NCBI GenBank assembly: GCA_020444065.1
Contig: JAHLLQ010000001.1
Location: 930,001 to 994,000 of the forward strand
Source of the DNA: a bacterium
Lineage (GTDB): Bacteria > Sumerlaeota > Sumerlaeia > SLMS01 > JAHLLQ01
Direction: 5' to 3'
Length of the DNA: 64,000 nucleotides
Below, piece after piece: positions 55,730-57,607 of this stretch; the stretch's first letter is position 1, and each line of letters begins with the position of its first letter. Under the pieces are notes generated by a model that was not told the origin of the DNA, ran no database searches, and was given only the letters and a program-made list of their open reading frames with translations. The position numbers and the translations under genes are program-made.

Positions 55730-56287
55730 TCAGATAAACTCGTGGAACAGCTCCTTGCTCGGGCCGGGGATGACGACGCTGGCGACGAGGATGCCGTCTT
55801 CGGCGGCGCGGGAACGGCCGGCGGCGACGGAGGCTTCAACGGCCGCAACATCGCCGGTGACCACGAAGAAGCCCTTACCACCGATCGCCATCGCGAGGTG
55901 CACGCGGAAAAGCTTCACATCGGCGGCCTTGGCCGCGGCGTCCGCGCAGTCGATGATCGACGTCGCGGAGAACGTCTCGACGAGCCCGAGAGCCTTCGCT
56001 TCGTGGGGCTCGACAACGACAGAGCAACCGATCGCCGGGAAAATGTCCTGGTGAATTCGCGGAATGTGGCGCGACTCGATGAGGCCCTCGCGAGCCTCCG
56101 CGGCGCCGGCCTCAGTCGAGGCTGCCGTGTCCGCCACGTTGCCGCCGACAACGACGAGGTACTTGCCGCTGCAGATCGTTCGCGCAAGGATCAATTGCAC
56201 ATCCGCGGCCTTCAGCATGGCGTCCTGGACGACGTATCCCAGCGCGATGCTGGAGCATTCCACGAGTCCGATCGAGTTCATTTCCAT
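55730..56287 (-). CDS. pduT: Bacterial microcompartment trimeric shell protein, PduT type
   Basis: A 185-residue protein made of two BMC domains in tandem (about 4-88: SIGLVECSSIALGYVVQDAML; 96-180: ALGLVETFSATSIIDCADAAAKAADVKL). The segment RTICSGKYLVVVGGN keeps the Cys that in PduT (KTICPGK) holds the Fe-S cluster at the trimer pore. AIGGKGFFVVTGDVAAV is the second domain's signature. Known role: shell trimer conducting electrons or holding a cluster at the pore of a microcompartment. It lies 18 bases downstream of the PduS-type gene, its known partner. No hexameric BMC-H, BMC-P or enzyme genes are in the window. Confidence 0.93.
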   Translation of the reverse strand: MEMNSIGLVECSSIALGYVVQDAMLKAADVQLILARTICSGKYLVVVGGNVADTAASTEAGAAEAREGLIESRHIPRIHQDIFPAIGCSVVVEPHEAKALGLVETFSATSIIDCADAAAKAADVKLFRVHLAMAIGGKGFFVVTGDVAAVEASVAAGRSRAAEDGILVASVVIPGPSKELFHEFI

Positions 56288-56305
56288 GGGTCAGGGGATC
56301 CTTCC

Positions 56306-57607
56306 CTAGCGTTCGATGACGATGGCGTCTTGGGTGATTTCGGCCACGCGGCCGGCGGCGCTGGCGTGGATCGGCACGCCGAGGTCCTTCTCGCCGACGT
56401 TGGCGATGATGTCGCCTTCCTTGACCGACGCGCCGGCCTTCACGATCGGAACGGCAGGTGCGCCAATGTGCTGGCTCAGCATAATGGTCAGGCGCGGCGA
56501 TTCAGGCATGTCCGGAAGAAGCGGACCGACATTTTCAAACTGGTTCAGATTCAGGCGAGACATCAGGCGTTTGACCGGCACGTGGCGCCCGTCGAAGACC
56601 GGATGCACAGGGCGCGGCATGCCGTTCCATTTCCAGCCATTGGCCTTCACCTCGGCCTTGCCACCGACGCAGGCATCGCGCGGATCGAGGCTTTCCGGAC
56701 ACGCCATCAGCGTACACAGGTTGCACTCGCAGCAGTAGGTCGTGCCGATGACCTGCGCCTGGCGGTCGTGCACGAAACCCAGCGAACGCATCGCCTTGTG
56801 CGGCTCGATCGGATGCCCAAGCAAATACCGCGGGCAGAATTCCGTACAGAACGAGCACTGGTCGCAGGCCGACCTTCCGATGCGATCGCGCGCCTGCTTC
56901 GGCCGATCGTAAACGTTCAGCAGATCGTGATCCGAAGGCAGGACGATCAACGCGCCGGTTGTGCGCGTCACCGGCTCGTCCAGCGATTTGACGCGCTTGC
57001 CCATCATGCAGCCGCCGCTCAGAACGCCGAAGTCGTCGACCTTTGCCCCGCCGGCCATCGCGATGCAGTCGCGGAACGGTGTGCCCAGGGGCGCAGCGAT
57101 CGTGACCGGATGATGCACGGCGCCGACAACGCTCAGGTACTTGCGCGTCACGGGCTTCGCGCGCGCCAGGTTGATCACCGTCTCGACATTCTGGACGGCG
57201 CAGTCGACATCCTTCGGTAATCCGCCCGGCGGAATGACTTTGCCGGTCGCTTCATAGACGAGGATGAACTCGTCGCCGGTCGGGTAATAGTCCTTCAGCG
57301 GATGAATCCGGATGTTGTCGGAGAGCAGCTTCTCGAGAATCTCGATGACCTGCGTGTACTTCGCCTTGATGCCGATGATGCCTTCCTTGGCGCCGATCTG
57401 GCGCATGATCATCCGCGCGCCTTCCATCATCTCGTCGGCGAACGCCCGCATCATCTCCTTATCCTTATGGAGGAGCGGTTCGCATTCGGCGGCGTTGATG
57501 ATGAATGTCGAGACCGAGCCGCCGAGCTTGACGTACATGGGAAATCCGGCACCGCCGGCGCCGACAATCCCCCACTGGCGAGCGTTTTTGATCAGATCGG
57601 ATGACAT
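56306..57607 (-). CDS. pduS: PduS-type microcompartment electron-transfer flavoprotein
   Basis: A 433-residue RnfC-like protein with GGAGG 11 bases before ATG. The N-terminus WGIVGAGGAGFPMYVKL and NAAECEPLLHKDKEMM form the FMN/NADH-binding RnfC domain, followed by an SLBB-like region (YLSVVGAVHHPVTIAAPLG). Two 4Fe-4S sites are visible: CDQCSFCTEFCPRYLLGH and CCECNLCTLMACPESLDPRDAC. The C-terminal barrel-sandwich is VPIVKAGASVKEGDIIANVG. Known role: NADH-dependent cobalamin reduction or redox shuttling inside microcompartments, with PduT. Upstream on the same strand is an amber-interrupted membrane gene. Confidence 0.93.
   Translation of the reverse strand: MSSDLIKNARQWGIVGAGGAGFPMYVKLGGSVSTFIINAAECEPLLHKDKEMMRAFADEMMEGARMIMRQIGAKEGIIGIKAKYTQVIEILEKLLSDNIRIHPLKDYYPTGDEFILVYEATGKVIPPGGLPKDVDCAVQNVETVINLARAKPVTRKYLSVVGAVHHPVTIAAPLGTPFRDCIAMAGGAKVDDFGVLSGGCMMGKRVKSLDEPVTRTTGALIVLPSDHDLLNVYDRPKQARDRIGRSACDQCSFCTEFCPRYLLGHPIEPHKAMRSLGFVHDRQAQVIGTTYCCECNLCTLMACPESLDPRDACVGGKAEVKANGWKWNGMPRPVHPVFDGRHVPVKRLMSRLNLNQFENVGPLLPDMPESPRLTIMLSQHIGAPAVPIVKAGASVKEGDIIANVGEKDLGVPIHASAAGRVAEITQDAIVIER

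Follow-up and report, generated by a model that had tools for sequence, protein, structure and literature searches.

The locus analysed here raises the question of why a shell protein of the bacterial microcompartment (BMC) type and its redox flavoprotein partner stand together with no other compartment gene around them. The window, the whole 64-kb stretch of DNA that was analysed, corresponds to C1:930001-994000 of the Sumerlaeota genome G000 (5.2 Mb, 14 contigs, 97% complete). On the minus strand of the window, a gene encoding a PduS-like flavoprotein of 433 aa (56306..57607) is followed, after a gap of 18 bp, by a gene encoding a PduT-like BMC-T shell protein of 185 aa with two PF00936 domains (55730..56287), as identified by ORF and domain search. 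The neighbours of the pair are unrelated genes. The initial annotation had reported this pair and no other shell gene in 64 kb, and the coordinates, domains and genome-wide searches agree with it. Whole-genome PF00936 and PF03319 searches gave 7 and 3 matches, respectively; only both halves of the PduT-like protein lay in the window, with no further BMC-domain or BMC-P gene there.

The best solved relative of the PduT-like protein was 3nwg (E 1.6e-40), with PduT itself lower in the same list. Its pore Cys, counted from the translation as Cys39 from the ATG at 56287 (TICSGK; codon at 56171..56173, minus strand), was kept in 6/6 aligned PduT homologues and is expected to be a 4Fe-4S ligand by analogy with a PduT structure (3pac) that has a 4Fe-4S binding site in its title. 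The PduS-like protein contains an FMN/NADH domain, an SLBB domain, two 4Fe-4S sites and a C-terminal RnfC-type barrel, and matched Complex1_51K FMN, SLBB (28.2 bits, cut-off 27), Fer4_17 and RnfC_N. With coordinates derived from residue numbers, its first 4Fe-4S motif, CxxCxxCxxxC (C248, C251, C254, C258), lies at 56834..56866 and its second, CxxCxxCxxxxC (C292, C295, C298, C303), at 56699..56734, both on the minus strand, and all eight Cys were invariant in 6/6 homologues. The preservation of the pore Cys and both 4Fe-4S sites, read initially from the window, thus extends to the homologues. The pair shares the fold, the pore Cys, the two 4Fe-4S sites and the pairing with PduT and PduS of the Pdu compartment. 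However, the PduT-like protein falls below the NCBIfam equivalog cut-off (TIGR02526 PduT, 119 of 250 bits), and the cargo found in G000 includes no B12 enzyme. The PduS-like protein reached 218 of 246 bits for TIGR01945 RnfC, and both proteins are named "-like" because the NCBIfam cut-offs were not reached.

The pair had been explained either as a satellite of a microcompartment encoded elsewhere or as a redox pair working without a shell, and a genome search for BMC-H and BMC-P genes and signature enzymes had been proposed. This search located a shell set and three enzymes with compartment-type tails. The shell set consists of two BMC-H proteins (PF00936; C10:30281-30598 and C3:395881-396165), three BMC-P proteins (PF03319; C2:423503-423814 and two adjacent genes at C2:721458-722047), one BMC-T, which is the PduT-like protein, and one three-domain BMC protein (PF00936; C1:892006-892887). 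The enzymes are a CoA-acylating aldehyde dehydrogenase with an N-terminal encapsulation peptide (C4:2370-3866; NF011927, 603 bits, cut-off 403, aligned from residue 1), the aldolase DERA with an N-terminal extension of ~80 residues containing the amphipathic segment IADVVMQVM (C4:245713-246621; TIGR00126, 275 bits, cut-off 117), and an RpiB paralogue of 195 aa with a conserved C-terminal tail, RpiB2 (C2:246341-246928; TIGR00689, above cut-off). Counting linked genes once, the components lie in nine places (six shell places, the rest cargo) with other genes around each, and the genome-wide PF00936 and PF03319 searches found no place in G000 where BMC-H and BMC-P genes occur together. The satellite explanation therefore holds insofar as BMC-H, BMC-P and tailed cargo are encoded elsewhere in the genome; its main locus does not exist as such, and there are nine separate places instead. 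A redox pair without a shell is unsupported, given the shell set and tailed cargo. Nor is the pair a paralogue of a complete locus with its own PduT and PduS, since G000 has no second PduT-like BMC-T, and the nearest other BMC gene, that of the three-domain protein, is 37 kb away, to the left of the window.

In the single-contig relative G015 (3,289,105 bp), PduT-PduS was found at 91 kb, DERA at 673 kb, RpiB2 at 3238 kb and the dehydrogenase at 1143 kb; the BMC-H genes lie at 586 and 875 kb, and the BMC-P genes at 906, 1162 and 2850 kb. Because the components are scattered on this single contig too, the dispersal is no assembly artefact. G000 and G015 are the basis for stating that no main locus exists; contig breaks may hide linkage in the fragmented genomes, some of which have components linked in twos or threes, such as the dehydrogenase with PduL in G034 and the BMC-P triplets of G013 and G014. 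No common 12-mer, allowing 2 mismatches, occurred in more than 3/9 of the components' own upstream regions, and as 60/60 control sets also reached 3, there was no sign of a common regulator.

Several genes adjoining the shell genes were recorded. A LarB gene (nickel-pincer cofactor, above the NCBIfam cut-off) lies directly upstream of the two adjacent BMC-P genes of G000 (L015:9096-12148; C2:720595 onward), and a NAGPA-domain gene comes after LarB and the two BMC-P genes; the same order was seen by eye in G010 (L193:2663-5665). At L011:9782-10963, 3 bp separate a BMC-H gene from a UbiA-like (MqnP-type) prenyltransferase gene downstream of it. Flavoprotein-like proteins adjoin BMC-H in relatives (L061:10913-11734, L063:10221-11003, L056:8907-9683, L059:9014-9775 and L071:8888-9748); those of L061 and L056 matched PF02441, and that of L061 also matched TIGR02536 below cut-off. 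Their C-terminal ITAEDV...IIT resembles the RpiB2 tail and is possibly a shared compartment module. G000 contained only two PF02441 proteins, which resemble UbiX and CoaBC and were rejected as this flavoprotein.

To see how far the components occur together, G000 and 40 further genomes were searched; these 41 genomes are related, so the p-values given here overstate independence. BMC-P and the CoA-acylating aldehyde dehydrogenase were present in exactly the same 26/41 genomes (Fisher p 1.6e-11), leaving aside one dehydrogenase match of 26% identity in G030. PF00936 was found in 25 of these 26, the exception being G010 (80% complete). PduL was absent from 10/26, among them G000, where the search gave 0 matches and the E. 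coli and T. maritima control genomes gave matches. Shell and cargo were present and PduT was absent in G007, G008 and G009; therefore, PduT is not always needed. Four of the 26 genomes were set aside, namely G002 and G019 for their PVM-like loci, G021 for a small locus of another kind and G039 for its consolidated one; the remaining 22 we call dispersed. The PVM-like loci L052 (G002, same family) and L053 (G019, another class member) carry PduL, a BMC-P triplet and a dehydrogenase; L052 has an aldolase-like gene by eye, and the DERA of G002 has a peptide-like segment (20.4 bits). A PVM-type locus was rejected for G000, as the PVM-like loci of G002 and G019 have other shell genes and none is present in G000.

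An encapsulation-like DERA extension, judged by hydrophobic pattern, dehydrogenase-peptide profile or both, was found in 20/22 dispersed genomes, which is 20/21 of those with DERA, compared with 2/8 compartment-free genomes with DERA, strong in G011 and weak in G003 (Fisher p 3.8e-4; one DERA copy counted per genome, the peptide-bearing copy where two exist). The exceptions among the dispersed genomes were G018, with a DERA lacking the peptide, and G028, with no DERA match; in G020 and G026 the peptide is on second DERA copies. In the clearest cases, the DERA peptide is near-identical to the dehydrogenase peptide, as in the aldolase of G037 (ISAIVEEVVRRV) and the dehydrogenase of G015 (ISAIVEEVVRRL). 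The DERA of G000 itself is a weak point: its peptide scored 7.5 bits against the dehydrogenase-peptide profile, a score reached by 34 of 2000 shuffles. A single gene separates the peptide-bearing DERA from the three-domain shell gene in G013 and G022. The linker from peptide to core contains CxxCGxC, like half a ferredoxin site, in G014, G023, G034 and G039 (L095, L087, L089 and L104, respectively), and a single Cys only (ACSLPHG) in G000.

Two RpiB copies were found in 14/22 dispersed genomes versus 0/15 compartment-free genomes (p 7e-5). Of the RpiB copies read, which cover part of the genomes' copies, 18 have a tail like TVQDLRDAI..K..L..D..T.ITPSVLD, every one of them in a dispersed genome, and the other 11 have none; the single RpiB copies of the dispersed G020 and G026 have no tail. 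RpiB2 is a further weak point, being without the Cys motif of housekeeping RpiB, the Cys of which we take to be catalytic. In RpiB2 (L211:3342-3929), DGAGYPSG stands in place of the CGTGIGMS of the housekeeping-type RpiB of G026, and the chemistry or substrate of RpiB2 may differ. The second RpiB of G000 is of the housekeeping type, within a transaldolase-like fusion whose partner was named by eye (L212:3-1550, C5).

In G039, which belongs to the same phylum and another class, a contig of 6.9 kb carries the compartment genes consolidated, in the transcription order PduL (cut), BMC-H, BMC-P, dehydrogenase, PduS, PduT, RpiB, BMC-P, BMC-P and DERA. This set is SPU-type as that type is defined by Sutter 2021 (PMC8217296), namely through pfam01791 plus pfam02502. 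Its PduS and PduT genes stand in the same order as the window pair, and this order is kept in G000, G013, G015, G029, G035 and the G039 operon; what G000 keeps of a G039-like arrangement is the PduS-PduT order and the BMC-P pair. The simplest history suggested by these arrangements would be the break-up of a G039-like operon into scattered genes. The G039 operon is the strongest support for reading the dispersed compartment as a deoxyribose-phosphate metabolosome.

From sequence, we consider it likely that the window pair is the electron-export module of such a deoxyribose-phosphate metabolosome, with its genes scattered over the chromosome. DERA would yield acetaldehyde, which the dehydrogenase would convert to acetyl-CoA with formation of NADH. 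PduS, an RnfC/NuoF-type NADH dehydrogenase, would take the electrons of NADH for transfer to the 4Fe-4S cluster within the pore of PduT, and the cluster would pass them to an acceptor outside, so that NAD+ would be regenerated inside. This export scheme follows a proposal cited by Axen 2014 (PMC4207490), and we infer that it applies to G000. PduS and PduT need not be the sole route to NAD+. PduL-based acetyl-CoA recycling was ruled out for G000, which has no PduL match. In G029, a phosphotransacetylase-like gene (named from sequence) is close to PduT.

The isolation of the pair among unrelated genes, and the three relatives with shell and cargo and no PduT, would also fit a pair that is a relic, or that moonlights as a cytoplasmic NADH-oxidising module and is no longer shell-bound. 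We regard this as improbable, however, as all six homologues retain the pore Cys and the eight Cys of the clusters, the PduS-PduT order is kept in five genomes and the G039 operon, and G000 has a full set of shell and cargo. It is unlikely, if slightly less so, that the dispersed compartment processes another aldehyde, the product of some enzyme outside the set found, and that the DERA peptide is incidental. Most of the dispersed genes adjoin unrelated genes, and G018 and G028 have no peptide-bearing DERA, as such a reading would allow; against it, 20/22 dispersed genomes have a peptide-bearing DERA and 18 a tailed RpiB, and the G039 operon links DERA and RpiB to shell and dehydrogenase genes.

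The cargo found here is cobalamin-independent; to our knowledge, the chemistry of DERA, RpiB and the CoA-acylating dehydrogenase needs no cobalamin. This argues against PduS being mainly a corrinoid reductase, with PduT passing electrons inward for cofactor repair, a reading that we consider very improbable although Axen 2014 (PMC4207490) connects the PduS of the Pdu compartment with cobalamin. The same puzzle was noted for SPU loci in that survey.

Among known compartment types, SPU is defined in all subtypes by DERA (pfam01791) and RpiB (pfam02502) in the type descriptions of Sutter 2021 (PMC8217296), and PduS occurs in Atribacteria SPU loci (Axen 2014, PMC4207490; Sutter 2021, PMC8217296). 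As described in these two papers, SPU loci share DERA, RpiB, a CoA-acylating dehydrogenase and BMC-P with G000, where the aldolase is DERA, the isomerase is the tailed RpiB2 and the dehydrogenase bears an encapsulation peptide. G000 differs in having no contiguous locus and nine places instead, a three-domain shell protein, a C-terminal tail on RpiB and no PduL-type phosphotransacylase, which is usual, though not universal, in SPU. As BMC-H and BMC-P share no place in G000, the system would function in the manner of SPU without being an SPU locus. FRAG types are described as having shell genes in up to six places, a BMC-P triplet and few linked enzymes, in many candidate phyla, and no obvious signature enzyme is given for FRAG1-7 (Sutter 2021, PMC8217296). 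G000 likewise has six shell places with no defined locus and 3 BMC-P genes; in contrast to FRAG1-7 as listed, it has a DERA with a peptide and an RpiB with a tail.

The word microcompartment does not occur in the main text of two Sumerlaeota genome papers. Sumerlaeota were formerly named BRC1. The BRC1 loci of 2014 were described as isolated and satellite-like, some with PduL or dehydrogenase, and the text on them left undecided whether the core locus was unsequenced or gene proximity was unneeded (Axen 2014, PMC4207490). In contrast to those loci, the near-complete genomes studied here have no core locus, and their cargo is identified.

The three-domain shell gene was complete in G000, G007, G008, G009 and G013, with 53-68% identity to that of G000, and was split by a contig break in a sixth genome, G022. 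It was the only PF00936 gene in G007, G008 and G009 (91, 88 and 75% complete, respectively). In a tree of 64 BMC domains, with branch supports unread, each of the three domains clustered by itself across these genomes, domain 2 of G013 falling beside, not inside, the domain-2 clade; the fusion is thus probably old and kept. Among the best 80 loci from 84,980 species, three domains in one ORF were found in the Sumerlaeota locus only. BMC-T proteins have exactly two PF00936 domains and form trimers; with three in one natural chain, this protein differs from BMC-T and from the engineered tandem BMC-H 6ner, and its expected tile would be a dimer forming a pseudohexamer, in place of a trimer. The structural model was moderate (pLDDT 63.5, pTM 0.48), with alignment A3, in which MAFFT split two-domain proteins over domains 1 and 3, left out of folding. 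Modelled domains 1-2 superposed on BMC-T 3nwg (Z 21.9, rmsd 2.4 A over 178 residues), and modelled domain 3 alone matched PduA (Z 17.1). We see about even chances that, in some Sumerlaeota, a dimer of this protein makes a pseudohexamer with two-fold symmetry and three distinct pore loops that builds the facets of a DNA-sugar compartment, the organelle of G007, G008 and G009 being made of this tile and BMC-P with genes sharing no locus. No publication on a natural three-domain BMC protein was found in the literature searched, with most subscription papers and preprints outside its scope, and the protein seems undescribed.

Scattered shell genes, as in the FRAG types, and satellite-like BRC1 loci are already known. 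New, within the literature searched, are the cargo that assigns a function, two near-complete genomes with no core locus, and the three-domain tile. These give a testable function, the breakdown of deoxyribose, the sugar of DNA, to a cryptic and widespread class of compartments with scattered loci and no signature enzyme, and they offer an answer to the question posed in 2014 about the core locus of this phylum. The three-domain protein would add a tile geometry beside BMC-H, BMC-T and BMC-P, with a possible use in shells with asymmetric pores, and the dispersed genes indicate that such organelles can persist without an operon.
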